Assembly: GCF_041381155.1 (NCBI RefSeq) | Contig: NC_091142.1 | Coordinates: 36,133,604 to 36,197,603, forward strand | Source: Argopecten irradians | Taxonomy: Eukaryota; Mollusca; Bivalvia; Pectinida; Pectinidae | Length of the DNA: 64,000 nucleotides | Direction of reading: 5' to 3' | Shown: positions 26,860 to 60,100 of the stretch, in pieces | Layout of the letters: every line of letters begins with the position of its first letter | Numbering within the stretch: position 1 is the stretch's first letter | The notes under the pieces: generated by a model | Databases searched by the model: none | Seen by the model: only the letters and a program-made list of their open reading frames with translations | What the model was told of the DNA's origin: nothing | Translations under genes and position numbers: made by a program

Positions 26860-26881
26860 TTAGGCGGTGTGTCCCTATCAC

Positions 26882-32833: not shown

Positions 32834-33169
32834 AGTCTCTGTAGGCCTGTGATTGGTCAGTTTTTTTCTGCTAAAATGCTTTCAGTTTTACTTCGGCATA
32901 GTCCACTGGTGATTATTACGACAGTAATAGTAAATGGAATATCGAGGGGTGGGGTTTTATTAGTTTAACGTCCTATTAACAGCCAGGTTCATGTAAGGAA
33001 ATGTCTCTGTAGGCCTGTGATTGGTCAGTTTTTTTCTGCTAAAATGCTTTCAGTTTTACTTCGGCATAGTCCACTGGTGATTATTACGACAGTAATAGTA
33101 AATGGAATATCGAGGGGTGGGGTTTTATTAGTTTAACGTCCTATTAACAGCCAGGTTCATGTAAGGAAA
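32834..33169. repeat. Perfect 168-bp tandem duplication
   Basis: 32834-33001 and 33002-33169 appear identical by eye, running from GTCTCTGTAGGCCTGTGATT to TTCATGTAAGGAAAT. The duplicated unit includes the 3' end of the SINE at 33125. Identity implies a very recent event or an assembly artefact. Confidence 0.85.
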
Positions 33170-33305
33170 TGACAGTCTTTTTTATGGGACAATCGGAGTA
33201 CCCGGAGGAAAACGACCTGACAACTACCCTACATGGGATTCGAACACGCGACCCAGATGTTGAGGGTTTGTGGTATAATAGCGAGACATCGGTTACCGCG
33301 GCCCC
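33125..33305 (-). mobile_element. tRNA-headed SINE
   Basis: The - strand shows the head ending in GGGGCCGCGGTAACC, a box-B-like GCGTGTTCGAATCCCATG and the shared body through CTGGCTGTTAATAGGACGT. Its distal end is repeated in the upstream 168-bp tandem copy. Confidence 0.75.
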
Positions 33306-34290: not shown

Positions 34291-37200
34291 GTGCAGCTGC
34301 AGAAAAAAAGGATTCCAACAATGGCCGACGCAGCAAGGTAAAATACATACAATTATTTCATTTATCACTCAACAACACACATATCGTTTACTTGCAAATT
34401 GAATGAATATTTATGATCAGAAAGCAAGGTTCAAATTCGCTTTAAATCCATTTCAAACACTGTTTTATATAAAAAAGGTCATATGCTAATTTAACTACCA
34501 CAACGTGTGTATGTAATTAAAATTTGTAAAATGACTCGAATTCCTCGATGATATAGAGATGTAGGGTTTTGTTAGGCAATCTCTATATAGTGATACAACA
34601 TCTTATTGAAATAACGGGACAAAGTATTTTCGTAAGGAAAATAAATGCTATATTGATACCGGGAACGTAATACAATGGGAAGTAAATATTCACTCGAGCC
34701 CCTCGGCGTTATAGTATGCAAAACAAACTTTCAAGTTAGAAAGGGCATCGCAGACCGGACCTCTGATACATAAAGGATTTGAATACATCCATTGTTCAAA
34801 ATATGTACATTAATGTTAATTGTATACTAGTGTGACGTCAATCTTTCCTAAATAATGAATTGAAAGACAATTATTATTGTTTTATTGCTAAATTCAACAC
34901 GTTCCGTTATTATTCGGATTACAAGTAGTCTTTGGTTGAACAAAAACTATGGACTATTTCTCTCAATCGCCAGCCTCGGGAAGCTGTTCCTCCTCTTGAT
35001 CTGAACATCTCGGGGAGATAATTCTGAAGTTTGGCTGAAAAGCAAGAAACAACTAAATCTTATTAAAATCAGACTTGTAATTTTTCTCCCTTTACGCTGC
35101 AATATAAGATTTAACAGCTCCCTGTTCGGGGCCACCTGTACAAATGTACATATACAATACTGTTTTATCTGCTGATATCTTTACATTTAACGTTTGATGT
35201 GTAATGTCTCTGGAACACCTAGCAATCTTTCTATCGGTTTATAGAGCTTTACCAATCAATGATTACGAACCAAACATATTACCTCATTTATAGTCTGATT
35301 TATTCATAGGCCCACTACATATCCGAAATTGATTATTTTGGACAGTCCGACAAGTTAAATAGAATCACAATGACACATAGGTTCGGTGTTTTACGCGTTA
35401 CGTACCTACGATTTATTACTGGTGATAAATTTTTCGTTAATGTTACACTTATCATCAGCTACTGAAAAATTTAATAAAACTAAATTAAATGTTAATTTTC
35501 AAAACGCGGGTCGTCCTATGTTTACACCGTCGTTCTCAATACCGCTCATTCGTTGACTATCCCTGCGCCAGACGGCAGCAGATCGAAATTAATCCTCACT
35601 CTCAACATAGATTACGCCAGAAATCTGGCAAATGTTTGCTGCTCTAACCTTATCTTAGGCCATAGGATACACGAGTATATTTCCTTGTGTTAGTATTGCT
35701 TTCAAGAAACTTTTGTGTGTTTTGTTTCGGAAAGGTAGCGGGCTTTTAAGAATTAAACTCTCACTTTGGTGGTTCTATCGCAAAAGTTGAGTAAGGAACC
35801 AATATTTTGGAAACTTGCCCTATATAGTTCGACAACGAGAAGATATAGATCCACAAAGCCGTGCAGTTAGTGGGGAGATATCGTTATTCACAATTGAAAT
35901 TTTCTTAACCTTAATGTAATTAAGAATTTTGAATATTTATGAGTATCGTTGGTAATGAATGCATCAATAACTGTATTCGCATATGTCGGTAAATGTTTAC
36001 CTTAACCAAGTCTGATAGTATAATGTATTTCTTTATTTGTGGTAGAAACATGTCACAACTCCAGTAATTGGTGGATATAGAATTAATTTCATACGAGTGT
36101 GTTATTTCTATTAATTACAAAAGACAACATTTTTCACATCTAATTGATTTGATTGTTTATTTTTTTTATTCCAGGGTCGACAGAGAAAGCAAAGCTGATG
36201 CAGCGAGAATGTAAATAGTTTCCTCTTCCTTTTAACATGATTCGTATAATATAGATAGAGAGAATACATAGATAGTATATTACAAATCAATGTTTCTTTT
36301 GCTCGAGGCTTTGCGTGTCAAGCACCTAAATGAAACTTATTTTTTTTATGACAACTTATTTTTTTTATGACAACACGACATTTATGGTCCTTCAAAAATT
36401 GATACATATATATATATCCGAGTGTTTTTCTCTCGAAAGTATACCTGACAAGGGTCATAATTCTGGATATTTCCTTCCATGAGCCATACATAACTTTTCA
36501 ATTTTCTAATGTGTGTAGAAATTGAATACGAGAGGGCATATAAGAAATATATTGTATCTATTACACTGCAAGATAACATTTAAAGTGATTATTTTGTCGG
36601 TCAATGAGTAAACACTGACTGGAGTACACAATAATACCAATCATTTATATTTCAGAATTAATCAGCTGAAAGACTGGAGTTCCAGGTAAGCCTTTATAAC
36701 ATTATGGACATCTCACACAAAGCCCATTGTTTTCTATTGTAGTAGATACAATGTACTACTAGCATAAAACCCTTTGTTTTGTGTAATTATAGTTATACCG
36801 CGGGTATGCTCAATGTCTAATGTGAATAATATGAAAATAGATATAGTCGAGAGAAATTTATATTGAGCTAAAATGATGCATTAATTTTGATGTGAAAGAC
36901 CATTATTATTTTTGAAGAGCAAATATATCCAATATTTTGTACAGCAGTATGATTATATAATATGATACAGGAATGATGTGTGTTGGCCTTCTCTACATGC
37001 CTGCTCTATTTTACTACTTCACTGAAGCGTATAATGCTTTACTAACGAATGCACCCATCCGAACACCTAATCGAGTAACATTCCATCGATAAACCAGTAA
37101 TCGTATTGGTTATGTTACCGATTCTGTAGTAGGTGATGACGATTTTTAATGCCTACCTGTCACTAAACATGTGTTTTTATTTCAGAATTTCGAAGATTTC

Positions 37201-40200
37201 ATCTAACAGTAAAATAAGGTATGAACTGCTTTAAACTCAAGCTGCATTCAAACCCATAGTTATTGAAGAACATTACCAAATTTAACTTTTAAAGTTGACA
37301 GTGTAAGTAAAATGTTTCGTGTTGAAATGATAAATTATCTTTAAAAGGTTTAAGATTTCTCTGTGAGTTCGGTCCGCCTTTTGTGTTAAAACCACCTTGT
37401 TACAAGGGTTAGAATCAGTGGGTATAAAACCACGCGCCACCTGTCAAATAATTGACAGCCAGGGGCCATTTAAGAAGTGTCGGGTTTGTTGGTGTTGGAA
37501 ACCGCGGTACCCGGAGAAAAAACACTGACCAGCAATCGGTACCTGATGACTTCTTCATATAGGATTCGATCTTGCAACCCAGAGGTGGAGGCCTGGTGGT
37601 AATATGTCTAAACCACTTAACCAGTCGGCAACCTGTCAAATGCTGACTTCGTACGCCTGTACATCAACATGCGCAACACACAATAACACGCACCTGATCG
37701 AGTGTCTTCGATGTGTAGATTGGCATTATTTATATAAGTATGTCTAAGAGGAAACCGGAGTGCCCGTAGAAAACTCATATGATCAGGCATGTGACCCCTA
37801 ACATTTTCACGTCCGTGCTGGGGATCGAAACCCTGGCCGGTTAGGAGAAACGCGAGTGGCTTAACCACCCGACCACCCCGACTATCTCTTTTGGGAAACG
37901 GTGGCTGATTACACAAGGGTAATCGGCATATCATTTAAAAATTATTCAATAAAAGGTATTCCAGCTTTGCATATTACATAGTTACCTTCCTTGGTATCCA
38001 TTGTGACGTCATTATTTTGTGAGCGCAACTCACGTAGTCTCTTTCTTAAAAGTAAGACGTTACCACATGACGTCACAATCAATATCTACCTGCAACGATA
38101 GATAACTCTATAATATGCAAATACGGAATATTAATTTGCATATTCAGCTTTTATATATATTAGATTAAACAAATCTCGAGGGCAAACAGAAAAAAATGTC
38201 ATTATTATATAATTATTTGAAATGATAGTGTGAAATATCAACACTATATCATTAAATATTAATTTGTGTGTGTTAAACATAACTGGTTGTAGCGCTGATC
38301 GTTATCATTGTTATATGTATATTCTACCCCCATTTTTATAGCTCTGGGTATATTTTTTAGATACATCTGATTGTATAATTTAAATACAAATTTTTATTGT
38401 AATTTCATGAATATTATAGTTTTTTTGTAATGCTTTATCGTCATTTGTTAAGTTAATAAATGGCAGATTTCAATTTCATTCGTAGCTGGTGTTTGTGTCG
38501 CACGCAACGCAATGGCGACACTTAGGTATTACTGTCGGCGTCAGCATCGGTGTCGTCGGCGTCGTCAGCGTCGTCGGCGTCGTCGGCGTCGACGTCCGGG
38601 AAAAGGTTTCCGTGCGTTAACTTAAACCAAATTTTATATATTGTTTTATATCAATGAGATTTCGGATGAGTTCGGTAATGGTAAAAATCCGTCAATATTT
38701 GTAAGAGTTACGGAACTTTGAATTCGTCAAAACAGATAAATACGTGGTTTCCGCTCGATAACTTTAATATTTTTAGTCCAAATTCAACCAAATTTGGTGT
38801 ATTGCTTTGTTTTATATCTAGAAATGGGTTTACTAGGGAATTATTGGAATAAGAACAAATTAACAATTTACAATTTACAAATGTCTCCAGTACTTTTATA
38901 TGGATGTAATGTGACGTTATTCTTTTTATCTAGGGATGAGTTTCCTGAAGAGTAAGTAATTATTTGTAGTTGGCGTGTGTTTGCATTTCAATGTGTGGTA
39001 TTGTTATAAAACTGCGATTTAAACTAGCTGACAGAAAATGTATAAGAATGAAAGATATATGAGGATGATCTTGAACTAATTGTTATGTTATGAAGATATG
39101 AAAAAAATTCTCTGGGTGTACTCTAAATCGACCGAAGGACAATCTATTCAAATTGATCCTGTAATTCCACTTTATTTGCTGAATTTAATCCGATGCCGTA
39201 ACAACCAATCAAATGCAACGTTATTAATGGCAACACTGTGTACGTCATTGGCAGATAACATAATTTTGAAGACAATGGAAATGTTTGGTACGAGGTGTTC
39301 TATAAATTATGTTACACTTTCAAAGTTCAATACTTTGTTTGATAGTTAAAGCACCCGGATTTCATTTGCAAAACGTCTGCAATCATAACTTTCAAATCTT
39401 TATTAAAATAGTTAGGTAATTTTAGCGATGAATTTACTAAAGACATGTTTTTGTAAAAATATTCTCAAAAACTTTATCTTTGATGTTTGAACAATTTTCG
39501 AACACTAGCACCACACATTTACTCTTATTTTCTCATTGATGAATTGGACAACGTTTACTTAATGTAGCTGATTATTTTCTGTACTTTTAGTAATAATCAT
39601 ATGGAAAGGATTTAATTTCTTGAGGTCTGGGGCATTTCAAACTGTCTGTAAATATCCTTCTTACATGTTAAAATGATGACGTACACAACGCATTCAACAG
39701 AATCAAATCATTCATTATAAATCATTTGTACAACAAAGCTTTTGTTTGCATGCCCTCATATTCCAAAATATCTTTTGTTGACTCTATAACATTTTAAGGT
39801 ATTACATCCCTGGGACACTCTGTACAAGCAAGATTAGGTTATTTCCAGATACGCTCGTTATTAATTGACTCGCCTTTGTATAAAGATTGCGGGCAAATAC
39901 TGCCTCAATTGATTTACGTGCTCGATGTCCAAAACTAATTATTAATTTTGTTTCATATGAGGAATCTATTGCGAATGAACTTGTATAGCTCTTGAATTAT
40001 AGTTTAAACGTTATTTGTTAATTAATGTGTATTTTCACTTCTAAAACAGAATTGAAAAGACCTTGCCGCAAACGTAGGTTTGATTTTTGATTTCGTCGTA
40101 ATTGGTTGCTTAAATCAAACCACGGTGCTCAGTGAATTGTTCTTAGTTTTTTTCAATTTAATCAGTTGCTTATTTATGGATATCAAACATTGGTAGTTAT

Positions 40201-43200
40201 TGCATAACGCCTTTGATGTTTTTTATATATTTACTTTAACACTTGTACTAATATAATTACACAAGTAGTTTTTGATAAATTTACTAAAACACTTGTACTA
40301 ATATAATTACACAAGTAGTTTTTGATATATTTACTTAAACACTTGTACTAACATAAGTACAGAAGTAGTATTTGATATATTTAATAAAACATTTGTACTA
40401 ATATAAGTACACAGATAGTTTTTGCTCAGTGCTTTACTTATTGCGTCATATTGACGTCAATTTTATCTATCATTATCAAAACGTCCCTAGGTTTTCATTT
40501 AACAAAACCTCAAAGATTGAATGCTTTTAAATTATGATATAATGTTATCTCGTTACGTATCCATTAATATATATATTGTGTGGTTTAAATTTAAATTTTG
40601 TTCCTTGTACCAAATAGCCTTATAAGTATAACACAATAGGGCACCATTTGCTTTCTAATCAGTATGAACGATAAACAGCTGCATTGTTTTGTTTTTCTTT
40701 GTTTTTTGTGTTATTTCTCTGTTGATTAACTTATACTTTTAATATATGTTTCGTGTACAAGGGTGTTGAGTTTTTCATTGTCTATTTAATTAAGATAATA
40801 TTTTGTTTTATAATGAAAATGACTATAATACCCTAAAATATCAGTTACTGTGGCTTATATTCTGTTTCTATAACCTGTCTTTCAAATGCAAGCAAAACAT
40901 AGTACAGATTTAAAAACTAGTGCTTACAATCACTTAAATTTAGCACTTATTCAGTACTTTTTGACACAAGCAAAAAAGCCAAACATGACCGTTTTGAAAA
41001 GTTCAAATACTATAAAAATAATAATGTTGGCTATCAAGGAAGAATAGCAATCCGCATTGTTATGACATGAGTACTGCTCTGAATACCAAGACATGTTCTC
41101 GTACATAAAACTATCACTGGTTTATAAAGAAACTTTAGGTAGGAAAATAATGCAATGTATGGTGACAATTACAATAATTGAAAAAAACCGTCATCCATCA
41201 TTTTTTTCAGATTGAAGGACCAGCAAGCATGTCTTCAGAAGTATGTATTGCATTTGTATATCAGAATTCTTACAGTCTTTGGATCAGTGTATTTATTATT
41301 GGAATTGTCATTAATTTTATCTGTACCTAATACGTATAGACATATCCATGACAATGGCGTATTATAGTAAGTTTACTGTAAATGTTCATTGCCATGTCTA
41401 CCTCATTCCGAACTTTACTTGAAGTAAAAGTGTTTTGTAAACTATTTTTAAAAGTTTGTTGATTCCACAATAAAAAACTATAAGCTATATGTTTCCATAG
41501 CTCTTAGATAGATATGAAAACAATGGCGTATTATAGTAACAGTTTACTATAAAGATTCTTTGTTTAAATGGGTGTTTTCTCTATAACCTCATACAAATGG
41601 TCAGTCGTAACGTAATTTTATATTCTTTTCCAAATTACTCAGCGTATTTATACATATATGTGTGATAAAATCGTTTAACTTGATTTTATGAAACGTATTT
41701 TTAATTGGTGTCACGATTTTTTTTTAACAGAATGCTGGATGATGGGTATGTTTTTTTTATCCATTTATGAATTTTTTAAACTTATACTCCATTTACGTGT
41801 GTACGAAATTAACCTCATTTATTTTTATTGGGCTAATATCGATCAATGTACATGCTCTTTAATTAACGCGAATGACATTTTTCACGTTTTGAAAATTTAA
41901 ACAATCTACCTGATATGATAATATTTCCTTACAGGTCATTCTCCGAGGACGTCGACCATTCGTCAGTATACTATATTATCTTTGTCCAGATTAATGTTAA
42001 AAGATTTGTATGGAACCAAATTAAATTTAAGAGTGAATTTGTGCTATATGACTATGTGACATATTGCTTCCTTAGTTATTTTTGAAGATTTGTTTTTTTA
42101 CATAACAATAAAAATTAAAATGGTTCAATGAAAAATATGCTATAGATGATTCCTAAGGTAGAATGTGTGTTAAATCTTAATGTTAAGGTCAAGACTTCTT
42201 GGTGTTTCTATAATCAAACCTACTTTTTGGTTTAATCTGTTTGCTAATAATGAAGACTAAGACAAAATGTGTCATGATAAGTTATGATAATTCGACTTTC
42301 AGTTACCAGCTCGCTTGCAATTTGATCAATGAGTGAGTATTTCAATGTTTTTATCTTTCACGACTGTTTGCTTAATTGATATGTGATGTAATCATTTAAC
42401 AAATTTATTTCGTTTATTTGTCAATGGATTATTCGTTAAACCTTATATTTTATTACCTGTATCACATAAAAATAGAGTTTGGTTAAGTCTATTTAAGGCC
42501 GTGAATATACAGTCAAACCTACCTAAGCGACCAATTATGTAAAATGGACACTTTTATATATGGGTCATAAGATCAGATGGTCAATTACAAAAAAATGCGT
42601 TCTTTCTAAAATATATATATATAAATTTTATTACCAAATATACCGTTCAAGCACGAGAATGCCCTTTAATTTCTTTCATTTTCATTTCACAGAATTGAGA
42701 ACAATTTACGTGATCAGTAAGTATACAGACAACGTATGAACATCATTATGTAGATATACAAATCCTTATTGTTGATGGCTGGCTAGAGAAACCAACGTCT
42801 CACTTTAAGTAATAAGATATAAGACATGTTCCCTTTATAATGTGTTAAGAAATACTGTTTAATATCAACGCTTTTCTTAGTATCAAAGCTACCATTGTAC
42901 ATACAAATAAAAATGTAACAATTTAATCACATAACAATTTAAGTGATAATAATAGATTAAAATCTTAGAATACAGTTTTCTTTGAAAATGTAACAATTTA
43001 ATCACATAACAATTTAAGTGATAATAATAGATTAAAATCCTTAGAAAACAGTTTTCTTTGATCAATAGTTTTTATAAACAGCCAATGCATGTAAAATATC
43101 TTAAGAATGAAAAAGATACAACACAGTTTCTTTTTATTTTAGAAATGTTATTGCGATTCCGAAAATTAAGGAAGGACTTAAAAGGTAAGAATAATCATGT

Positions 43201-45153
43201 AGTGCTACTTTTAGCATGTTGATATACTACATACAAAAACTAGTCATACTTAAATGCATGGGTAGTCATTTAATATGAATATTATGTAGACAGAGATATA
43301 TAAACCTAGTAGGCACGCATTTACCAGAATAAATTAGTAGTTATAAACTATTTTAACATATTAAGTTATAAGGTTCGTATATAATATATTATAAAAGGAT
43401 ACTTGCTATCATCATACTAGATAAATAGAAACGAATTATAACACATCGAATTGGTAAATACTAATACAGTTAGTAGACACGAACTATAACATATTTATAA
43501 TCAAATCAATCAATTATTTGATACTAATAATAGCCATAAGTCATCTTTTTTTACAGAATTAAGGACCATTTACTTGCGTTCAACGTCAAAAAGTCAAGGT
43601 CAGTGTCTAGTTTTTTATCACGAAGTGCTTGCGCTATTATTGCCAGAAGATATTGTTCATGTTATGAAAACAGATCCATATCAGTAAATGAATCGAAGTT
43701 AAAACTTTAATTTTTGTCTTTCAGGCAAGCTTTACGCATGTGAGTATGAATATCGGGAAAGGGAACAGTGGCCAACAACTAACAAATATATCAGCAATTT
43801 GATTTTGATAATGATATTTTGTGTGTATAACTAACTTATTACGAGGAAAGTGTATCACCATGACTCTCTTACCTTAAAGGGTTTTCGGTAGGTATGTAAC
43901 TTGTGACGAATCGAATCCGATGTGATCTGGTTGGCAGTTACTGACCGCTGGTCGGTAATTCTTCCCTAGGTACTCCGGTATTCCTCCACCATCAAACCTG
44001 TCACGTCCATACATTACTCTGACTGTCAATACTAAACAAACCAAATTATAACTGGTTACGTATTGACACCCTAATAAATATCTTTAGAAACTAAAAAAAA
44101 CAAATAACGCTTTTGACAGGATATTACAACTCTTCGCTCTGTACGTTTATGCATCAAGAGAGGTTTATTTTCTGCTTGTGGTGGTGTTATCTATTTTTAG
44201 AAGCAATAAAAGTGTGTGTTATCAACGCCTATGTGTGAGAAGATCTAGATTTTGAAAACCTTATACTTGTGGTTTTGTGAAATATAAAGATATCCTGGAG
44301 TATTTCAATACGTTTACTTTTTATTAAACTTATATTTATTCATATTTTCCGAAGTCCGGGCACCGAATATCAAAACTAGTTTCATTTGTTTTAGAAATGC
44401 TCGGCCGCCAATAAAACATAAACGATACTCAGCATTTGAACTATGATTGGATTTCACTTATGTATCTTTTTAACCGAAGAAAAATACTAACTCGTCTGCT
44501 TCTGTTTTGAAAAATACCATAGGTCAGCGGTGGAGCATCTTTAATGACATAAAAATAACATGTTTGTTATTAGCGAAGATGTTTGGAGGGATTTTGACAA
44601 ATACTTGCAATAATTTACATCTCACTAAAATAAAGTTGGAGTTGTCGCCCTTTAGCTATTAAGTATTGTATAGTATATACAAATTCGAAATTGAACAGAC
44701 CAGGTTTTCTGAAAGACATACTTCTGTATGTCGAGAGTTTTCCCTTTAAAAATAATATGATTGGAAAACATTTTTCTACGTATGTTGTAACAATGAAGGA
44801 TATAATCATTTCTACCTATTATATTAAAGTATGAACCATTATTCTTTTCAGCATTAAATGCCCAAAAGATTGGTGTTCGTGGTAAGTATTCATTTTCTTT
44901 TTAACACAAAAACAAGCTTGCTTGTATAAATTAACATCATATAACGCTGAAATACACAGTATTATTTCCTGCCACGATCCCATATTTGATTATTATAATC
45001 AAAGTACGAGACCCTGGAAGGAAATAATACATTCATTGGAAATTTAAAATCAAAAGTTATAAAATGTATTTTCAACGCGAATGGTTTTTATTCGATTTTA
45101 TTGGTTTTTTTTTCTGTTTTTAGCTTCAATACCTGGAAATCAAGCCAGAACAA
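34291..45153 (+). CDS. Microexon gene, exons 1-15
   Basis: Exons read, across junctions: MADAA(R); VDRESKADAAR(I); INQLKDWSS(R); ISKISSNSKI(R); DEFPE(E); LKDQQACLQ(K); MLDD(G); SFSEDVDH(S); YQLACNLIN(E); IENNLRD(Q); NVIAIPKIKEGLK(R); IKDHLLAFNVKKS(R); QALR(I); IKCPKDWCS(C); FNTWKSSQN(K). Brackets mark the residue made at a splice junction. Acceptors are mostly TTTTCAG or TTTACAG, and donors are mostly GTAAGT or GTATGT. Introns are 126 bp to 2.3 kb, so exons are under 5% of the span. Weakest calls: donors GTAAAA (34338) and GTCAGT (41962). Junction residues are often R or another charged residue. Confidence 0.7.
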
Positions 45154-48100
45154 GTAAGTAGAATGAATTAGTGAATTCTTGTTTGTTATTGGCACATTCA
45201 ACTAAAGTCTAATTACAAGTACAAATTAACCTCTTTTGAACATTATGCGTTTAATACAATGTCTTCAATATCTGTAAATGAAATAAAACCCCTGGCATGT
45301 GTAAGTCTATTAACTAGGTCGTTTTTACGAGAAATTAAGCAATTCGAAAATGACATGTATTAAATTCCAAATGTATGAGTCTGGTATAAACAGTACCTGA
45401 GTATAGCAATCTGATGTCTTCAAAGTCATTTTATTTCAGGACAGAAATTAAAACATGAATATTCAGATCGGTTGTGGATATGCGCAATAGGGGACTAAAT
45501 GCATGAATTAGGATGATTTGTAAACTTCATGTCTGCAATATTGGACGTTTTATCATAGTAATTTTGTAAACTAAATCACGTGCTATCTTATGATATATGA
45601 TATATATTATTATTATAAGTCAGTTTTTTTCATTAAATTAAAAAGAAAAATGATAGATTTTCTTTAAACATTTTTTCACTTTTTCATGATCAATCCATTC
45701 ACTTTTTATTACTACTGATTTTTGTAACAGGTCTGAAAAAGAACTAGATAATATATTACAAAGGTAAGTAAAATTATCTAGTAATTCATAATCACAAACT
45801 TAGATCTGTAACAGAACTAGAGAATATATTACAGATGTAAGTTAAATTATCTAATAAATCATAATCACAAACTTAGATCTGAAACAGAACTAGAGAATAT
45901 ATTACAAAGGTAAGTGAAATTATCTAGTAATTCATAATCACAAACTTAGATCTGAAACAGAACTAGAGAATATATTACAAAGGTAAGTGAAAATTATCTA
46001 GTAAATCATAATCACAAACTTAGATCTGAAACAGAACTAGAGAATATATTACAGATGTAAGTAAAATTATCTAATAAATCATAATCACAAACTTAGATCT
46101 GAAACAGAACTAGAGAATATATTACAAAGGTAAGTGAAATTATCTAGTAAATCATAATCACAAACTTAGATCTGAAACAGAACTAGAGAATATATTACAG
46201 AGGTAAGTGAAATTATCTAGTAATTCATAATCACAAACTTAGATCTGAAACAGAACTAGAGAATATATTACAGAGGTAAGTAGAATTATCTAATTAATCA
46301 TAATCACGAACTTAATCATGATCATGATTAGTATAGTGTTATTAATCACATGTTGATTTTTTATATGGCCACACTAGTGTTATTGAATTGTCAATAGGTC
46401 AATATTTAAGTTAGGTGTACTAATCCCAATAATTTGAAGTGTAATAACTTTATTAACTCGTCTTATAAAAACACTGAATGACTGATTTATGGTTTTGTAC
46501 ATGTAATTAACCTTATTTATAGTAAACAGGGATACTCCATAATGAACGTCCATTTATTTTCACCCTCCAGGAATAAGCTGAGTAGTACAAAGTAATGTTT
46601 TCTATTGTATGAACTTATATCTATACGATTTTTATTTCTATTTCAGTTTAGAGAATCCATCAGCCAGGTAAGCATTCAGTGGTAAAGTTCTTTTGCCAAG
46701 GTGGGTAAAACAGTGTTTATATAAAAGTTGAGCAGTACACGATAATTTTGACTTAATTGAAAATACTACTTATAATATAATTTCATAAGAATAACCTTTT
46801 AAAGGGACATGAACCTTAAATAAGTTGTTCTGTATGCTGAGATATGATTTTCAGATGTTTATTGAATACTTTATTACAATGATTGGTTATTTAAAATGAC
46901 AGGAAAAGGTGGGGAATACCTACCCCAAAAATGATAGAAATAGACCGTCATATTCTATTTTTGGAACACAAAACTAAAGCTGACCGAAAGCGAGGTTGTA
47001 ATGAACAACAAACTTGCTGATGACATGACAATGAATATTAGTTTTTCCACGTTTTTTGATTATTTTCTAATTTGTGATGGTTGACAAATGAAGTTTAAGC
47101 AATATTTGTTAATATTTGTTATAAAACAATTTGTATTTAGAGTAAGAATGATAAGTCAAAAGTCAAACGCGACTTTTCATTCTACGGGGCACCGCGAAGG
47201 GAGGTTAATAACTTCTTGCACACATATACATCACGCAAGTATAAAGTGGGAAGTTGCTCCCGTCTCTTGCATTTCAGCGATCCATCTATATTTACCTACT
47301 TTCCCAATCTCGCATGTTACTGACACTTGACGTACTCTGTTTTCTATCACAATTTTTGTTAGTGTAATTCGCTTCACCCACGATTTTGACCCAGTATTTT
47401 GGTTACATTCATTTGATTTGTGCAGTGCATTGTGGGAGTTCATTAAAGTGCAACACTTTAGTACAATTACTGATATATATTACTTAGTAAGGTATCTGAC
47501 ACGTCTTAAATATGTATTTTACTCAAATTTACATGGTTTATTTAGGTTCATGTCCCTTTCAGAACTATAGTTTTCCACTCATTCTTCACTATTTCGGAAA
47601 GTTTTTTTATGATGTAGTCCAAAATATTTGTCCCTGACATTGTTTTTCATGATATAAATGGATATGATATTGAAAATATGTATAACGAGTCTTTGTAACA
47701 AGCGACTAAAAGAAACATAGATAATACTGATTACCGACGTGTACGGTAATCAAAGTTATTGAAGCCATTATGGAAGTTTAGTATGTGTCATACGTAAGGT
47801 CACAGGAGTTACCCCCCTTTGACAGTAGTTTAATAATTTAGAGTTATCTCGCTTTGCATAGGAAAGCATTGTATAGAACGTAATCCCAGCATGCTAAGTT
47901 AACATCCGGTCATCGACAGATTAGCAAATAAGAGGCACATGCTTGCAGAGAATTTAAATTGTACTGATCGGATTTATTAAGTATGCCAAGAGGTCTTGGA
48001 ATTAGGAAGCGGCGAGATCCCGGGGTGGCTTTGTCTCCGCCCCCAGAGAAAAGAAAAGGGGGAAGGCGAGCAGTTCCCCTCCCAAAAAGGACGGAGACCG

Positions 48101-51100
48101 CCGCTGGCGAGACCCGGAGGGAGACTCCACGTGGTCAGCTGCCAGAGGTACCAGTAGTAGAGCTAGAGGAGGTACAAGTGGAGGATGGGATTACAGGTAT
48201 GGGCATAGAGCCCGAACCGCAGATGTTATTAAATGTACATGATAATGGTTACAATAATAGCACTACCCCCGAGATCGAAATTATCCCCCTGGAGTCCCGA
48301 CTCCATCGGTGACCATGTGCCCCGGGCTATAAAACAAAAAATCTGGGGTCACGAGTATATAAATTTGGCCCTTCTTTTAAAGGGCTACTCAGAATTGAAT
48401 GACTTTTGCACTAGTGCGCCGATGGTTGTCGGATCCAGTGGGATGATAGAGACCCGCCCCCTACTTGTAAAGAAAAAATACCAAATGTGGAGAAATGGAC
48501 AGATGCTTTCCACATTTATATGTCCATTTATTTGGAAAGATTCCCCGCTAAGGTACAGGAACTTTTGCAGTATGTAAAAACAATACGTGGGGCAGCTTGT
48601 CAGGGTGTGCCGGGGGGTTGGCGAGTGTATGATGAGCAATTTAGGGCTCGTCTTAGTCAATCTCCTGGTTTAGCATGGAACCAAATTAATTCAAACCTTT
48701 GGCTCCGGGTAATGACCCCTCAAGCCGGTGGAATGGGGAAGAACAATGTGGTCAAGGGAGGTAACAAGGAGTGGGGTGGGAAACATTCCAAGCCATCACC
48801 TTGCTTTGGCTTCAATAGGGGTAAATGTACGTATAGTAACTGCAGGTACACTCATGTTTGCAGTATTTGTGCTGCTGACCATAGTGCATTGCAGTGCACT
48901 AAGTCTTTTCAGCCCTCAGCTGCAAGTTCCAGTCAAGGAAAAAAAAACCCATGGCAGTGTCCAGTCTGGGAAAAACCCCAATAAATAGTGAAAAATTAAA
49001 ACAGGAATTGCTTGATTACCCAAACCATCAAATCACACAGGAGCTTGTTGATGGTTTTTCAGAGGGATTTCCTTTGCATTATCAGGGTATTAGGGAGGAT
49101 ACTGATTGTTTAAATTTAGGTTCAGTCAGACAGAATGTCAATATGGCCCTTAAAAAAGTTCAAAAAGAGGTGGATCTTGGAAGGGTTGCCGGTCCATTTA
49201 AGGAAAGACCTTTACCTAATTTTGAGACTTTCTCCTTTGGGTCTGATTCCAAAGAGTACACCGGGGGAGTTTCGTTTAATCCACCACTTGTCACATCCTA
49301 AAGATAATTCAGTTAATTCTGGTATCGATTCGGATTTGTGTTCTGTTCAGTATACCAAATTTGATGAGGCGATTGAATTGGTCCAAAATTTAGGTCAAGG
49401 GGCTTTATTAGCAAAATCCGATATCAAATCAGCTTTTAAGTTACTGCCAATATCTCTACAAGACTTTGATTTATTGGGATTTAAGCTTCAGGGTTATTAT
49501 TATTTTGATAAATGCTTACCGATGGGATGTTCATTATCATGCAGCTTATTTGAGAAATTTTCAAGTGCTTTAGAATGGATAGTTCAAAATAAATCAGGAA
49601 AACGATCTGTATTACATTATGTTGATGATTTCCTTTTTGGAGGTAAAGCTGGTTCCACCCAATGTAAGGATTTATTGGAATGTTTCTTAGCTTCTTGTGA
49701 AAAACCTGGGAGTCCCTATTGCTGAGGAAAAGACGTTAGGCACCCTTGCACTGTGTTATGTTTCCTAGGTTTAGAAATTGATACTGTAAATCTTACAATT
49801 AAAATCCCTGCAGCTAAAGTAGTTGAGATTTGTGAGAAGCTAGAAAATGTGTTCTCAAAGCAGAAAGTAACTTTAAGGGAAATGCAGTCGTTGATTGGGG
49901 CATTACATTTTGCTTGTAGGGCTGTAAGACCTGGGCGGACTTTTTGTCGACGTCTAATTAATTCAATTAAGGGTTTAACTCAGCCCCATCATCGCATTCG
50001 GGTTACTGGGGAAGTCAAGCAAGATATTGAGGCATGGTTATATTTCTTTAAGGGTTTTAATGGAGTTTCAGTGTTTCAAAAACAAGGAATGGGAGAGTTC
50101 TCAGGATTTGTGTTTGTACACTGACAGCGCCGGGGGCCCAGGAATGGGGTTTGGGGCCTTTTTTTATGGTAAGTGGTGTTTTGGAGTATGGCCAGTCAAA
50201 TGGCATGATCAGGGCTTAACCAGAAGTATTACACTGCTTGAATTTTTCCCAATTTTAGTGGCCATAGTTGTTTGGGGGGAATTACTAACTAATAAAAAGA
50301 TATTGTTTAGGTCAGACAATACAGGAGTTGTAAGCATCATTAATTCTCTAACATCTAAGTCAGATCTGGTTATGAAACTAGTCCGGTCATTTGTTTTTGA
50401 GATGTTTAAAATTTAACATATTGTGTAAATGTTCACATATCCCTGGTGCTGATAACACTGTTGCTGATTCAATTTCACGTTTGCAGTGGGACAGATTCTT
50501 CCAGTTAGCTCCAGGCGCAGAACGGGAGCCACATGTGGTGCCAAACCATCTATGGGAAATCTTCAATTAGAGATTGAGACTTTAATTCAGGGTAGTATTG
50601 TCCAATAATACAAAGCAGGCATACAGTACAGGCCTGTCATCTTTTAAAAAATTCCGAGAGTTATACAGGCTATCTGAGATGTGGCCTGTGCCTATCAATC
50701 ATTTGCTACAATATGTGGCTTATTTATCTATCAGTGGAGCATCCCCTAGCACTACACAAACTTACTTGTCAGGTATAAGTTACCCACCCCCCCCCCCTGA
50801 CCAAACCCAACAAAATTAAGGGGTGGGGGGATCCTGCAAAACAATTTTTAGTACAGAAAGTTATGGAAGGTTATAGGCGTACAAAGGCATCTCCTGATGT
50901 GCGAGCTCCAATTACCTTAGATATCTTAAGGAAGATTGTAGGTGCATTACCGTTTGTTTGCACTTCAACATATGAAACAAGTTTATTTCGTGTGGCCTTC
51001 CTGTTAGCCTTTTTTGGTTTTATGAGGGTTGGTGAACTTACTAGTACTGCTAATTCAGATCATGCAGTGGGACTATCAGATGTGTCTTTAAATGATCAGG

Positions 51101-54100
51101 AGGTGACATTAAAACTAACCCACTCAAAAACAGATCAGACAGGTAAGGGTCATATTTTGGTTATCAGTGCTTGTCCAGATTTATCATTGTGCCCGGTTAA
51201 GGCAACATCAGCATTCCTTAGGATACGTCCTAAATCTCTAACTCGTGAATTTCTTTGCCATGCTAGTGGAAGGTCATTGTCGCGTTACCAATTTTCAGCA
51301 GTTTTGAAGAAAACATTGCAGTTCGCTAATGTCCCAGCTGCCAATTTTAAAACTCACAGTTTTCGCATAGGGGCGGCGTCTGCGGCTTCGTTGCAGGGAA
51401 CTCCGGATGAACAGATAAAAGTGCTGGGCCGCTGGAAGTCGGCATGTTTTCAGAGATACATACGTATTAGTGCTCCAACATTGTTATGCCGTTAGCTGTT
51501 TATTACTGCTTGTTTAAGGACATACTTTAATTTACCAGTAGCGTTGTTCGTTTTTGTGTATATGCTGTAATTAATTAGAGTAGGACAGATGCTAATATTG
51601 TAAGTTCGTTACAGATGTGTGGATCATTGGGTCTTCATTAGTTTATTGGGCAGAGAAGAGGGCAATACAGAGACTGAACAACAACCTTCGTCTTGAGAAT
51701 ATTAAAGTAGACATTACATGGACAGGTATTCGGGGTATGCATTGGCGGGATTTAATCCCTAAGGTCCGTCAGATGTTGTCAGTGAGTCAGGCAGGTCCCC
51801 CTTCTATGATGATATTACATTTGGGCTCCAATGATTTAGTTGACCGCCCATGTGCTGAGTTACAAGAGGCAATTGCAAATGATATCCAATTGCTCCACCA
51901 GCTATGCCCGAAGACTGTCCTGGTCTGGGTCAGATGTTTTGTGTAGGTTGTTTTGGTTTGGGGCTGGGAATTTGAGAGCAGTTGAGAGAAAGCGGGCACG
52001 GATAAATAGGAAAGGTAGAAAAGTAGTGAGAGCCTTTGGGGGAAAAATCATACACCATACAGAAATATCTTTTGATTGTCCAGGCCTGTTTCGTAAGGAT
52101 GGTACTCATTTGTCTGATATTGGTAATGATATATTTATAACTGATTTTCAATCAGCACTTGAGACATTCGTGAAAACAAATGCTATAGCTTTTTAGCTGC
52201 TAAAATTAAAGGGCGTAGGGCATTGGTTGTTGCCAGATTGGGGCAGTAAGCTTTGCTTTCTGTTTGGCGGAATTCTGGCAAGTTGGCGGCAGCATGTGTC
52301 AATAAGCAAATTCCCCTTTCATTTTTAAGTGGTACGGGTATCCAGGGTAGGTCTCTGCTTGGTTTCCCAAGGGACATAACTCAGGAGGAAAAGTGATAAG
52401 GGGAGGTAACTCTGCAGGAGATGGATGATAGATCCAAGTTTGGGTGTTGGCTATGGGAGCCATCACAGTGTTTCATAGGCAACTGCTTGGAGCACACCAG
52501 CATGGTGTGCTTACACAAGAGTTGTGTTCGCCTGGTTTCCCAGGGAACAGCCCTATAGTGTTGCTGTTTGTTGCTCATTATGCTGGTGGGCATTCAGCTT
52601 GGTGCTGTTTGTCGGGTAACCATGCAGGTGAGCATTCAGCAGTTTGCTGTTTGCTGGACACTATGCTAGTGGGCATTCGGCTGGAGATATCAGTCTCTTG
52701 TAGAGTTTCAGGTATATATAAATATATATGCTTGTTGGCACATGCTGCTGCTGTCTGGTTCAAAAAATCTGTGGCCGTATCCCAGCAATAAGTTTGTGTT
52801 GTTTGTATGGAATAAGGGTCTTGAAATAATACTGATTACCGACGTGTACGGTAATCAAAGTTATTGAAGCCATTATGGAAGTTTAGTATGTGTCATACGT
52901 AAGGTCACAGGAGTTACCCCCCTTTGACAGTAGTTAATAATTTAGAGTTATCTCGCTTTGCATAGGAAAGCATTGTATAGAACGTAATCCCAGCATGCTA
53001 AGTTAACATCCGGTCATCGACAGATTAGCAAATAAGAGGCACATGCTTGCAGAGAATTTTAATTCCCACCCTCCCAATCCCTATTTTTCTAGTTGACATT
53101 CATTGTTTTATTACAGTATTGGTAAAATAACTTGTATGCTGTGCTTAAGCAATATTCTGCTGTTAGTTCTTTTTGTTCCAGTTTTCTCCAAGTCATTATC
53201 TGGATATTTGGAAACATATACCTGACAAGGACGTTGTACAGTGTGATTCATAGCGTGCCTTATTTCAGAAATCATTCTGGAGTTGTGTTCGGTTTTGTTG
53301 GCTAGTGGACTGTAAGTATTATTGTCTCGTATTAATGGACGATTCATGTGTGAGCTTTTCCTGGTGAGGACATGTTATGCCAGTGTGCTCAACAACAAAA
53401 AATTGGTGAAGAGTTAAAATTAAACTGCGCTTACTTTAAAGATTAAAAAGTGTGCAATTCATCAATTAACAACATTGATAGCAAAGTTCATTTGGATTAA
53501 CAGGACTTTAACAGAAGTGAGTGATACTACATCATCTACATAGGGAAAGAATATCAAGTGGACTATGATAATTCCATGTTTTGTTTGTTTCTTTGTCACA
53601 GGTTTGCTGTTTTGAATAAATTAGCGGAATTCTGGCAAGTTGGCGGCAGCATGTGTCAATAAGCAAATCCCCCTTTTCATTTTTAAGTGGTACGGGTATC
53701 CAGGGTAGGTCTGCTTGGTTTCCCAAGGGACATAACTCAGGAGGAAAAGTGATAAGGGGAGGTAACTCTGCAGGAGATGGATGATAGATCCAAGTTTGGG
53801 TGTTGGCTATGGGAGCCATCACAGTGTTTCATAGGCAACTGCTTGGAGCACACCAGCATGGTGTGCTTACACAAGAGTTGTGTTCGCCTGGTTTCCCAGG
53901 GAACAGCCCTATAGTGTTGCTGTTTGTTGCTCATTATGCTGGTGGGCATTCAGCTTGGTGCTGTTTGTCGGGTAACCATGCAGGTGAGCATTCAGCAGTT
54001 TGCTGTTTGCTGGACACTATGCTAGTGGGCATTCGGCTGGAGATATCAGTCTCTTGTAGAGTTTCAGGTATATTATAAATATATATGCTTGTTGGCACAT

Positions 54101-57100
54101 GCTGCTGCTGTCTGGTTCAAAAAATCTGTGGCCGTATCCAAGCAATGAGTTTGTGTTGTTTGTATGGAATAAGGGTCTTGAAATAAAAGCATTTCTAAGA
54201 TGAAGTAACAATTCATACATAAAATACTGCCTTTTAGGTTCTGCTCAAGGTAGACTTTCTGGCCGTTAAAATGAACCATATTATTTTCTGACTGTACCTA
54301 TGTTTCTAAATTTGACAGCAGTAGAATAATGATGGAATTTTTATGGGGCTTCCAAGTGGACAGCGACATGCCAAACCGAGTGTTGAGATGTCCCTTTCCA
54401 CTTAACAGACTCATGTTTGATTATTCTTCTTTAAAATTTCAAATGGAATGAACATAAATTTAAGATACTTGTTACATGTACCACATAATTACAACAAACT
54501 ACCTTTCCGAAAAGGCTTTTATTTTTAAAATGAAAATGTAAAACAAAATTGATAATTTTTTGGAATTGCAAAAGTTATAAACTTACCATTAATGCTACAC
54601 GTATCATCACCTTCTGAACAAATGGATAAAATGTTAATTTTCATAACGCGGGTCGTTTTATGTTTCCCGTCGTCTTACCAGTACCGCATTGTAGTTGACT
54701 ATCACTACGGCAGACGGCAAAACAGCGAAATGACTATCCACTGTTATCATATATTACGGAGGAAATCTTGCATATGTTTGGTGGTGTAACCTCATCTTTG
54801 GCCATCGGTAACACTTTCTGATGTTGCAAATATTTTTTATAGAAGGAATCTTTATGTTTTGTTCCAGAAAGGTAACAAAATAGCGTACTACTATTCTATA
54901 TATAGCTCCGAGTGTATAAAGGGTATTTCTCTAGTTATTGCATTCATTCATCCCGTTTTCATATTACTTATCGCTCACTTATTTTTTCAGTAAAATGAGG
55001 GTTTCGGAAAGGTATGTATATTACATTTTACAAAATATTTCAATATTTACACTATCAAAACGGCAATAGGTAACAATGTAAACTAAATGATACTGTGCTG
55101 TTTACATCACGAAATATGTCACGATCATATTGATAAGAATCATTATGAAAACGATGTGTTGCTCTCTTAATAATCTCTCAATGATATAATTTTGTATGTT
55201 TTTGTATTTCAGTACGTACAAGATCACAGACATGTAAGTTAGTTTTCTTTAATCATAATACCATAGAAAATTTGTTTAAAATTTATCATTGATTATAGGT
55301 CACTAGTTTCATATTTTATAGGAAATAAAAATCGATGACTTTGTTTCTTTTTACATAAAGTTAAAACGATAAAATCAAAATCACTAGCTTTATTTTAGAT
55401 CTTTGCGTATATCTGGAAAATAATAAACCTGCAGTATGCTTCTTGTCAATAGTAGATATGTATGATTTCCGCAAAAAGTGGTAAATAACGGTTAAAGTGA
55501 CCCCACACAATACTGATAGTGAAAATATATGCCCCTAGGGCAAAATTTCCAATTGATGTGATAATGGGTTTTTTCAGGTCGGAGGAAATAAAAGACCTTC
55601 TTAATTGGTAAGTGTAACTCAACTCGTGATTTGTTTTTGTCCATATCTGCATACGTACTAGAAGGTAAATTAGAGTAAGATCAGTGTGTCGAGGGGTAAC
55701 ATTGGCATATTTTTTACAATATATTTATATATATGCCAAATTATTTTGAAAGTGTCGTAAGTGATTTGTCATGTTACTGTAGGCTAGACATCGCAATACA
55801 CTCACTGCCCGAATGGAAATTTAACAATATCATATCAAAACGTTTAACCCATATTCAATTTGGTAAGATGTTCTTTTACTAATACATGACAAAACTGACA
55901 AAAACAGTCTAAATTGAACCGTGTTTTCCCCGTACCGTTAATCATTATCGAATTTCGACCAAGTAGTAAATTCTTAATTATAATGTGACTCATTCAAGCC
56001 AACTCCTTCGTACTAAAATATGTTTAGTAATTTGTAATTCAAAGTCAGGTCTCATTCTGCTTGATCCGAGACAAATGGTTTATTTAATATGCTATATTTT
56101 ATTGTAAATCTTGTAAGCGTTGTTGTTATGAAAAAGGACGAATTATAAGAAATAACTCCAAAGATATATTGGTCACCCAGATGGATTTCCCATAAACACA
56201 ATGGAAGCTCAGGTCAGAATGGAGTAATGGTGAAACTGAACACCACTAATCGGCATGCCTCATATCTGATATTTGCCGTGTAAAAGTGGGCATCTATAGT
56301 AGCATTACAACCATTAAAATTCGATGTAATTTACCCTACTGGTAATATCTAATTTAATAGTATGTGTGGACAGTATTTAGTGCAATTTTTACATTTGTTT
56401 ACTTCTGATTCATGGTATTCAATTGCAGGCCTGAACAAAAGAGGTATGTAAGACATGTTGCATTTTTTCGTAAAACCAGAATTATTTTCGAATAAACACC
56501 ATATACAAAAACTGTAATAAGATAATTACTTTTCAGTAAATTATTTATGTTCAAAAGTCTAAGAAATTCCATATTATACACTTTTGTTATAAAACTTTAT
56601 TATCTACTACCTATAAATATGTTTATATAACAAGTGCCTCTTTGCATTGTTGATAGACGGCCAGAAACAATGTCAAGGTCAAGCGGATGCATGTAAGTAT
56701 CATTAAGCATTAACCTTTTAAGGAGTATGTGGTCCCTCATCCTCGATACTCCAGGGGATCCGATCACTTACGACCACTACACCCCTGGACTATATTATTG
56801 TAAAACTGAAATCACAGACCTGCAAAACTTTCCTTTGAAGACTACAGAGAGAGCGACGCCCAACATTAAAGGCACACAGTCAGTCATAGTGTGCCGTTAT
56901 ACGGCTCCTTTTATGTGCACCAAAGAACTAAATTACCAGAGGTGTAGAGATCGCAAGTGATCGGAACCCCTGGAGTATCGAGGATGATCGTCTCTATACA
57001 TGCCAGTATTTTTGCATATAATTTACGTTGATGTCTTGGTCTGGTTTGGTAAAGTGTACTTGTTTCTGTACTTGTTTCCATTTCTTATTCTTGATTGTTG

Positions 57101-60100
57101 ACTATTTTTGGCTTGATTTTAATTGGATATATGGTTTTCCAAACTAAAGAAACAATACTACTTTTTCGAATAAAATTAACGTCGAAAGGACATTCCTCGT
57201 TACATGTGACTATAAGATATAACCTAGACTTAATGATAAATCTTTATCTATTATGATATAACATTTACTCAACACAGCTCATTCCTAAATGAATCGCCAA
57301 TATATAGATATGAAGATGAACATTGCATTCTGTATTACTTACTAATCCGTTCTATAGTATGTTAGCACAATTGTACCCAACTAATGACACATCCGCAACG
57401 AAGTTATGGAATTATACTGTACTCAGGTTGTCTGTCTATCCGTCTGTAGAAACAATGATCGACCGACTACTCCTCCTTAATTGCCGGAAGTATTTCAAAC
57501 AAACATGTTTACGATAGTCCTTATACTATGTAGATGTGCATAATTTGTATCGAATCACGGTATATATACACATTTATCTTTTTTACAGTTATGCCCCTTT
57601 TGACATTACGGTCAACCAACTACTCCTTCTAAATTACTGGAGGGATTTCAACGACATTTGGTGGTTATTTAAGGATGACCTTTGATAGACATGATTGCAT
57701 AACCCATATACCGCATGGATTTGTATAATTTTTATCTGAACAATTAACCTCCACTTTTTATAGCGTTATGCCCTTTATTACAAGGGTGCTGGGGCGATGT
57801 TATGAGTTGTCCTCCTGGACGACAGTAGTAATTAGTTTTTACTTTCTATTTCAGTGAGAACGAAGTCAAGGAGTTGAAGAACAGGTACGCGGAATGACAG
57901 AATGAATAGAGAACCAATATTGTTCTGGATTATTACCCTTTAAACCAAAGGCATTTTTTTCAAATTATATATGTGTGCTTAGAAGAAATCATTTATGGGA
58001 TACTCATTCTTTAAGTAATATTGAGCTTTGCGGAATAGATTCAATGTAATCCTCGATATTAATTATTAAGGAATGTTTAGCTTTGTCCTCCCTGGGTTAA
58101 ACAATTCATTTAAAATGCCATGATAGTGTAGTCTTCATTATAAAATATTGTAAACGAATAATGATGCAATAAAATAACTAGCTTGCACTATACGACGTTA
58201 AATACACTTCTGTTTTTAAAGGATGAATGCATGCTTGTTATTTTTTGTTTTTCATTTTTGGTATAAATCACCTCTTTTTGTACATATTTTGTGTATGTGT
58301 CTGTAACAGATTTGAAGACGCCCTTGCTATCATGTGAGTATATTTGTTTTGGAAATGACGGAATCGATTAAAAAATTATATTAATTTTCTAACATTGTTG
58401 TAATACATATACAGTCGTCATCAACTAAATTACTTAATTACAGCCATTTAAATCTTCATTATATATTGGAAATGTAATGTCTTTCATTCATTTGAAATTA
58501 TATTAAGATGGATCCCAACTCCAAATCATTTAGCCTGGTTGCTTATTGCTTAAAGACAATAAGCTATTGAAGAGTGTTAAAAGTTCCTTAATTAAAATGT
58601 TTTGGTGTCTTTACTCGTGACATTTTGTTTTCTTTATCTATTACAGAAAATCTACTCCAATTGTTGATCGTCTGGAAGGGTAAGATTGTCGCTCTGACAT
58701 ATTATTCTGAGTATAGCATTATAGCTATTGCTCATAATTATCGGCTGAGTTATAAAGATTCAGTTTGCTATCCTATCTTTTATTTATTCTGATGTAATGT
58801 CGAAAATAAGATGTGATCAGTGTTTTTAGGTAATGAGAATCGGGTTGGAATGCAATAGTGCAAGCATATATATTTTAGATTAATGAAGATCTGGGTTGAG
58901 TAACAATAAACTACTTTAAACTAAAGAACGTAGCTGAGTATTCGACTGAGTTATAAAAACTCTGATTATTTAGAAAACAACGTTTATGTCAATATGACGT
59001 TATGATGTTATATCGAAATAACATTTGATTAAATTTGATTCAATTCAAAATCTTATTGTTCTCAAAAGTCATTTTTAAAAATTAATATTGGTTGTAAGAA
59101 ATCAATTTTGGGTACTTAGAAGCGGCTTAGATTGCAGTGTATAAAGTTATGGATTAGATTAACGAAGTTCTGGTTTTAGTGACAAAAAGTTGCTTTCAAC
59201 TAAAGAGAAATGCTGTCATGTAGCCTTAAATAAATGGCAATTTGAATATCATACGATTATTCACTAAAAATGACTTTATAAGTGATTTGCTTGTTTAAAA
59301 GGATGAGGGAAGCTATGGACGGAATCCTGAAATACATCAGGTAAGTATTTCTAAATTAGTTAAAGCAGTCAATGCTACCCAGATTCATGTTGAAATGGTT
59401 TTTGTTTTTCTCTCAAAGGGATTGCTGATGACCTCTGTATATCGATCCCCGATAAATCAACTCAAAATAAACATTATACAGTGTTATTGACGTGAAAATT
59501 GTCTTAGAACTAATCCGCTATACCCTAAATGTGTCTGGGATGATTAATAAAAAACAAAAACACGAGAGCGCAAGAGGTTGAACATCATGTAAGGCTATGT
59601 AAGGCTCTCGATTTGAAAGGTTAGTTTTGTAATCCACTTTAATTTCTAGTTTGGTATGAAATATTTAAATGCACTATACTATTTCTTATTTAATGGAACT
59701 GAACTATGAACCTCATATACAAAATCCAACAAACATACACAATTTCCATTCACAGGTTCAATAAACATAATCTTTATCAGATATGACGAGCAAACGGTTT
59801 TGTGTTTGAAAAGTGGACAAACCTAGAAGTTCTCTTTCACAATACGAAATAAGTTGTGCTGATGCTTATTGTCAAAATGTAATCATATTTGAAAAACATT
59901 TATTCATTTTTTGTTTTGTGTTATATCAGAGGTCTCCGTTTCAACACCAACATTTTTGTGAAAACTAAACCATGGAACTCCGAAAAAAGAGGCATAGAGT
60001 TTCCTTCAGAAGAGATTCAAAGTGACAAAATGACCGTTGAATCAAGTGTGTTTGATATCGTCATTACTCGTCCATCATCTTCCGATGACAACTGTGATAG

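Follow-up and report, generated by a model that had tools for sequence, protein, structure and literature searches.

A chain of symmetrical microexons in Argopecten irradians that probably continues into a ZU5-like/death-domain gene family

The DNA considered here is a 64,000-nucleotide stretch (the window) of contig NC_091142.1 from the Argopecten irradians assembly GCF_041381155.1 (C9:36133604-36197603), and related sequences were sought throughout the genome, which amounts to 846 Mb in 1508 contigs. The feature of interest is a plus-strand gene built from microexons of uniform phase. The exon model, which was guided by a paralogous copy on the same contig (paralog B, described below), comprises 27 exons between an ATG at 34321 and position 59340, for a total of 746 nt or about 248 codons (Table 1). 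The 26 internal exons are 15-42 nt long (mean 28 nt), and all are multiples of three. All introns between the 27 exons are phase 2, with each exon ending after the second base of a codon and the next opening with the third, and the resulting reading frame contains zero stops. Introns range from 126 to 1837 nt, except for one of 8323 nt, which contains a DIRS-like retroelement; this is an insertion in the intron and not part of the gene.

The exon chain is genuine and far above the level expected by chance. Splice sites were scanned with generic consensus matrices, taking as candidates AG...GT segments of 12-48 nt and scoring each by the sum of its acceptor and donor. At a summed score of at least 15, with the retroelement excluded, all 20 non-overlapping candidates in the gene have lengths divisible by three and an open frame in one and the same phase. 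In the remainder of the plus strand of a 264-kb region, the three length classes are represented by 9, 9 and 10 of 28 candidates, multiples of three accounting for 9 of the 28. With the threshold lowered to 14, multiples of three make up 22 of 23 candidates in the gene and 24 of 60 elsewhere. The best same-phase chain of 12-48-nt exons scores 125.3 with 24 exons, or 114.9 with 22 exons once the retroelement is left out. The null set, consisting of 25.4-kb windows of the 264-kb region in three phases and on both strands (108 chains), has a maximum of 13.0, and the highest score among 60 first-order Markov resamples is 14.7. Isolated candidates of this type also occur elsewhere, as would be expected if the AG...GT pairs had arisen by chance in AT-rich introns or intergenic sequence. 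However, null chains of up to 14.7 against 115-125 for the gene, together with conservation of the exons in paralog B, lead us to reject a chance origin, the probability of which is vanishingly small.

An initial annotation had described positions 34291 to 59340 as a gene of 34 in-phase microexons and about 325 codons, had judged chance agreement very unlikely, and had noted that internal exons are multiples of three of a single phase class with no stops. The last two statements agree with the null maximum of 14.7 and with the 27-exon frame, and a real coding gene of symmetrical microexons is upheld by both the splice signals and the colinear paralog. The total of 34 is reproduced as 27 exons plus seven tandem copies (325.7 codons), of which the seven copies are doubtful. 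The exons are present within the proposed limits, although both limits change. The coding start is most likely the ATG at 34321 rather than 34291; the ATG and its donor are conserved in paralog B, and the acceptor upstream of the start exon (34290) is not at the same place there. At the other end the gene most likely does not stop at 59340 and, rather than consisting of microexons alone, would lead in phase into a ZU5-like/death-domain family on the same contig.

Table 1. Exons of the microexon gene, its probable downstream exons and other elements in the window (window numbering).
Feature	Position	Strand	Evidence and remarks
Start exon	34321..34337	+	ATGGCCGACGCAGCAAG followed by gtaaaa; MADAA + 2 nt; paralog B (C9:37614779) keeps both ATG and donor
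Microexon, 36 nt	36175..36210	+	Phase-2 introns on both sides; paralog B keeps AG/GT
Microexon, 30 nt, INQLKDWSS	36656..36685	+	No difference in paralog B; probable third copy matches this region
Intronic element, 89 bp	36992..37080	+	93-94% identical at C9:37613257-37613345 (paralog B) and C9:37638622-37638710
Microexon, 33 nt	37186..37218	+	Splice scan, paralog B
Microexon, 18 nt	38934..38951	+	Splice scan, paralog B
Microexon, 24 nt	40050..40073	+	Splice scan, paralog B
Microexon, 30 nt	41211..41240	+	Splice scan, paralog B; flanking introns unusually conserved
Microexon, 15 nt	41731..41745	+	Splice scan, paralog B
Microexon, 27 nt	41935..41961	+	Weak donor gtcagt, score 0.1 (gttagt in paralog); conserved in paralog B
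Microexon, 30 nt	42303..42332	+	Paralog B
Microexon, 24 nt	42693..42716	+	Splice scan, paralog B
Microexon, 42 nt	43143..43184	+	Splice scan, paralog B
Microexon, 42 nt	43557..43598	+	Splice scan, paralog B
Microexon, 15 nt	43725..43739	+	Splice scan, paralog B
Microexon, 30 nt, IKCPKDWCS	44852..44881	+	Paralog B; like 36656 exon; ends TG, so certain joins would give TGA
Microexon, 30 nt	45124..45153	+	Splice scan, paralog B
Microexon, 33 nt, SEKELDNILQ	45731..45763	+	Paralog B; first copy of tandem exon array; good acceptor (7.7)
Seven extra 33-nt copies of 45731 exon	45804..46275	+	73-bp tandem array; exon use doubtful
Microexon, 21 nt	46647..46667	+	Identical in paralog B
Retroelement, DIRS-like	47730..54180	+	Reverse-transcriptase frame and tyrosine-recombinase match below Pfam cut-off; repeated flanks; limits by eye
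Microexon, 21 nt	54991..55011	+	Splice scan, paralog B
Microexon, 21 nt	55213..55233	+	Splice scan, paralog B
Microexon, 30 nt	55578..55607	+	Last microexon visible in paralog B
Microexon, 15 nt	56429..56443	+	Splice scores alone; no paralog found; sole skipping would make TGA
Microexon, 36 nt	56657..56692	+	Splice scores alone
Microexon, 30 nt	57855..57884	+	Splice scores alone
Microexon, 24 nt	58310..58333	+	Splice scores alone
Microexon, 33 nt	58647..58679	+	Splice scores alone
Last microexon, 39 nt	59302..59340	+	Splice scores; best donor of all (13.2); two in-frame ATGs, a potential own start
Long exon, ~117 aa	59930..60279	+	Entry phase same as microexons; matched at 7 other C9 places; weak donor gttata
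Phase-0 exon, start of ZU5-like domain	62267..62461	+	92% identical to g36079 copy; more exons beyond window end

Paralog B was detected by a DNA search with positions 40000-41000 and lies at C9:37.60-37.61 Mb on the minus strand, 1.4 Mb away. All 21 tested exons, from 34321-34337 to 55578-55607, are present there in the same order, with 495 of 569 bases identical (87%), an AG before 20 of 20 internal exons and a GT after 21 of 21. Equal exon lengths were imposed by the ungapped matching, but both splice sites fit in all 21 cases, and 18 of the 21 exons were also aligned gap-free by MAFFT, the other three being misplaced. For each of the 21 exons, the likeness between the two copies (0.72-1.00) exceeds that of the flank on either side (0.24-0.86); for comparison, random pairs average 0.31 and reach 0.64 at most. 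Intron identity is 63%, with 3649 gap columns; the alignments behind these figures contain the three misplaced stretches. Among 16 blocks with at least 90% identity over 40 columns, 11 overlap exons, which make up 5% of the aligned bases, two fall in the tandem array described below and three are intronic. DNA from 41080-46700 matches paralog B and dispersed repeats (best 39 of 3090 candidates scored), and DNA from 54895-55630 matches paralog B only; apart from likenesses among the gene's own exons, the 264-kb region contains no exon match near the level of paralog B.

The substitutions between the two copies are those of a coding sequence. They are distributed over codon positions 1, 2 and 3 as 18, 18 and 38 (P=0.001), and in the predicted frame dN is 0.117 and dS 0.26, for a dN/dS of about 0.45; in either of the other frames dN is above dS. 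A permutation shows a deficit of amino-acid changes (P=0.039), and finding no stop in the part aligned to paralog B has P=0.034 under random placement. By these values the microexons are under moderate, not strong, purifying selection. A third copy is likely on C9 near 37.6386 Mb, because the 89-bp intronic element recurs there adjoining a match to the region of the 36656 exon, in the same order as in the window; the copy is represented by these two matches. No hidden exon was seen by eye in the 36992-37080 block.

The paralog also decided the fate of several candidates. The exons at 40050, 41935 and 42303, which fell below the scan cut-offs or were passed over, were added because paralog B keeps them, and a candidate at 46571-46591 was rejected because paralog B does not keep its acceptor. 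For want of support, the three earliest chain members (20909-29494), four candidates within the retroelement (47.7-54.2 kb) and one of 12 nt at 43880 were discarded. The six exons from 56429 to 59340 are called from splice signals only. The tandem array contains eight copies of the 33-nt exon in the window and three in paralog B, one of the three by eye. Copies 2-8 retain the length and the AG...GT ends, but they are doubtful as exons because their introns would be 40-41 nt (the shortest other intron is 126 nt) and their acceptors score 1.7, against 7.7 in the first copy.

The donor at 59340 and the acceptor at 59930 are 589 nt apart and both phase 2, and since the one leads in phase to the other, the gene most likely does not end with the last microexon. 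The long exon entered at 59930 has eight matches in C9:36.08-36.29 Mb including itself (best 150 of 912 candidates scored); the remaining 131 matches listed fall in the distal portion of the exon, chiefly in its final ~30 residues, which are a dispersed repeat. If it is left unspliced, its frame enters a dispersed repeat at 60280-60359 (found at >100 places) and meets a TAA at 60357, which could be an alternative protein end. The next exon, at 62267, likewise has eight matches including itself, and exons common to the window gene and its relatives are also found near 66.5, 70.0 and 77.2 kb (window numbering). These define a local family of about eight genes with the order long exon, ZU5-like part, further exons and death domain. 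In the 77.2-kb exon of the window gene, PF00531 (Death) is matched with E 1.3e-5 and 25.7 bits against a cut-off of 22.6, and we infer that a message would reach this exon. ATG-started candidates within 2.5 kb with a donor score of at least 6.5 are only those that end at the donors of two microexons.

ZU5-UPA-death-domain proteins include UNC5 and PIDD1, and the local family resembles them in its domain order and in the death domain, which is above the cut-off in the window gene's exon; it differs in that ZU5 is found only below the cut-off, UPA is not found, and the N-terminus here is encoded by microexons. ZU5 was not found with an approximate splice of g36079, a solved-structure profile search for ZU5 gave no match at E up to 1, and UPA gave no match in either of two spliced relatives at E up to 5, with filters that drop most weak matches. 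Because the ZU5 matches fall below the cut-off, "ZU5-like" is to be taken as a lead and not as a result. Autoproteolysis of this part is not claimed, since the residues at the place of the expected HFS motif are CFS, RFS, HFC or HLC.

The reading that we favour, at a probability of roughly 0.57, is that the window holds the 5' half of a gene whose N-terminus is encoded by microexons and which continues in phase into the ZU5-like/death-domain family, the microexons acting as frame-neutral cassettes. The start exon and about 26 symmetrical microexons (20 shown by both splice signals and the paralog, six by splice signals) would encode a charged N-terminal part of about 248 residues, and the chain most likely continues into the 59930 exon. 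The family members would probably be intracellular, cytosolic adaptors in cell death or immunity, and skipping of cassettes would vary the N-terminal arm in length and sequence before a constant C-terminal signalling part.

Several observations weigh against this reading. The join to 59930 rests on phase, for which agreement is expected in 1 of 3 cases by chance, and on adjacency, and a downstream gene could begin at either of the in-frame ATGs in the exon at 59302-59340 or at another a short way upstream of the 58310 exon. No C-terminal family exons were detected for paralog B in the long-exon search (best 150 of 912 scored) or the 62267 search, and after its last visible microexon it runs, as judged by eye, into LINE-like (non-LTR-retrotransposon-like) sequence. 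The last six microexons are without a paralog, a search with 56380-59360 finding only a repeat (best 40 of 2305 scored), and the amino-acid permutation gives only P=0.039. No microexons were found upstream of g36079, the closest C-terminal relative, and in g36129 a candidate exon of 48 nt lies between start exon and long exon. Of the two spliced relatives, one matches Death below the cut-off (E 0.014) and the other has no Death match listed; ZU5 is below the Pfam cut-off in both (E 0.34 and 0.11). Finally, the long exon has the donor gttata in the window gene and gta in all six relatives shown, comparison of this exon with g36079 gives a dN/dS of 0.98, and exon 4, which lies beyond the window at about 70.39 kb, carries a frameshift relative to the family.

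The distribution of exons among the copies, with no C-terminal exons detected for paralog B and no microexons upstream of g36079, would also fit two separate genes, i.e. a microexon gene with its own 3' exon and a neighbouring ZU5-like/death-domain gene with its own start. Four other tested members have the C-terminal exons and no microexon chain, as does g36079. The best upstream chains in five of seven family members score 5.0, 10.0, 19.6, 15.8 and 5.1 (g36278 and g36247 were left out for want of an anchor), and microexon chains upstream of these members were rejected at scores of at most 19.6. However, a separation of the two parts has to contend with the very strong donor of the last microexon and its in-phase acceptor, with the absence of an MG[N/S]KPS-type start exon before the long exon in the window, and with the phase that the family's start exons share with the microexons. 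We consider two genes to be rather unlikely.

The weak donor of the long exon, the dN/dS of 0.98 and the exon-4 frameshift suggest that the C-terminal half of the window copy may be decaying, or that there is an assembly error there. These same features, and the retroelement in one intron, could be taken as signs that the window copy as a whole descends from a working gene and is now decaying as a pseudogene, but the 27-exon frame is stop-free, the lack of stops in the part aligned to paralog B has its own significance (P=0.034), and the splice sites are intact; this is improbable. Against four of the five relatives, dN/dS is 0.22-0.49 for the long exon; for the 62267 exon it is 0.82 against g36079 and 0.37-0.46 against four others.

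Under the favoured fusion of the microexon chain to this family, the relatives also suggest how the chain may have arisen. In g36129, g36226, g36257 and g36288, a 20-nt start exon, ATGGGC(AAC/AGT)AAGCCAAGCAG, lies 1.1-1.7 kb before the long exon. These start exons (MG[N/S]KPS) end in the same phase as the microexons and can splice straight to the long exon, so that the family in its ordinary form looks like MG[N/S]KPSR joined to the long exon; no start exon of this type was found for g36079 or for the window gene. Because of this direct splice, the microexons appear, from the anatomy of the genes, to have accumulated within, and to occupy, phase-2 intron 1 of the family. An intron of phase 2 can take up only 2-2 symmetric exons if the frame is to be kept. 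This would account for the phase shared by the microexons, and so striking a regularity may need no further cause. Growth of the chain by exon duplication is suggested by the tandem array (eight copies against three in paralog B) and by the likeness of the 36656 and 44852 exons, a pair with a score of 25 where 30 shuffles give no more than 24, which is weak evidence.

The same duplications, together with splice sites that are mostly good, are also what would be expected of a fused gene in which all microexons are constitutive, the tiny exons recording growth of the N-terminus and not the making of variants. The initial annotation had supposed that any exon can be dropped without loss of frame. 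This is nearly so, with 370 of 378 forward exon joins free of stops, but eight make a TGA, one of them by skipping 56429-56443 alone, and that stop likewise speaks for constitutive use; in paralog B, 9 of 210 joins make a stop. Conversely, strict symmetry permits in-frame skipping of nearly any exon, and weak splice sites or highly conserved flanks are seen in some of them, though nothing of this proves skipping. The introns around the 41211 exon are unusually alike in paralog B (0.74 upstream and 0.86 downstream, 41078-41369), and conserved introns on both sides of an exon can mark regulated exons. Constitutive splicing is a serious contender, at somewhat less than even odds.

The initial annotation took the microexon product, here 248 residues, to be helical and to lack a signal peptide; its mean helix propensity of 1.06 is too low for it to be called helical, and hydropathy gives neither a signal peptide nor a membrane helix (the highest 9-residue mean in the N-terminus is 0.19, the highest 19-residue mean 0.35). 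A Pfam search with 189 of the 248 residues gave E values of 0.019 and 0.06, below the cut-off, and the best solved-structure match to the 248 residues has an E value of 0.28.

The only genes known to us to consist mainly of one-phase microexons come from flatworms and aphids, and their products are secreted or salivary. Schistosome microexon genes (MEGs), to which the initial annotation compared this gene, are described in PMC10526429 as having 10-20 exons, mostly multiples of three of 3-81 or 6-81 bp, introns of about 100 to almost 5000 bp, and a shared N-terminal signal peptide on secreted proteins, the frame-neutral exons being thought to yield variants. With N-terminal coding sequence in 26 internal multiple-of-three exons of 15-42 nt the window gene fits that outline, a likeness of structure only. 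It departs from the outline in lacking a signal peptide by hydropathy, in its roughly 27 exons, and in leading into a ZU5-like/death-domain family. Aphid bicycle genes, which are candidate salivary effectors, have many microexons of one phase, about 17 exons on average and more than 100 in megacycle, and nearly all their internal exons are described as starting at codon position 2 (PMC9168663). The window gene shares the very small internal exons of one phase (26, with a mean of 28 nt), but all 26 start at codon position 3, and it again differs in having no signal peptide by hydropathy. Given the figure for megacycle, the number of exons alone is not a record.

Among the matches listed for the open-access literature on molluscs, bivalves, oysters, mussels and annelids, there was no report of such a microexon gene. 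A sea-anemone toxin paper mentions microexons (PMC10210398), and expansions of TRADD-N/death-fold proteins are described for bivalves and other marine invertebrates in PMC8195603.

What the locus adds is a genuine gene structure of this unusual kind, apparently on another protein family: a one-phase microexon architecture seems to be carried by an intracellular death-domain family whose neighbouring relatives are without the chain. As copies with and without it share one chromosome, the origin of microexon chains becomes directly testable, and growth inside a single phase-2 intron is the case at hand for how such chains arise. If the exons are skipped, they would provide splicing-based diversity in an innate-immune or cell-death protein. 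Tentatively, and as a possibility of which we are doubtful, the first intron of a death-domain gene may have been colonised by more than 25 microexons to give a splice-variable sensor or assembly arm, an exon-mosaic innate-immune protein apparently independent of MEGs and bicycle genes and still changing via its tandem array. Standard annotation may well miss these ~250 codons.

Elsewhere in the window, a TRIM-type gene (RING, B-box, NHL) lies at 17378-19950 on the minus strand, and a second, partial TRIM-type-like copy lies in the opposite orientation at 3412-4801 on the plus strand. The sequence immediately ahead of the microexon gene contains, at 32831-33171 and 33515-34144, a tandem duplication of 168 bp whose copies are 99% alike and extended arrays of 21-bp units.

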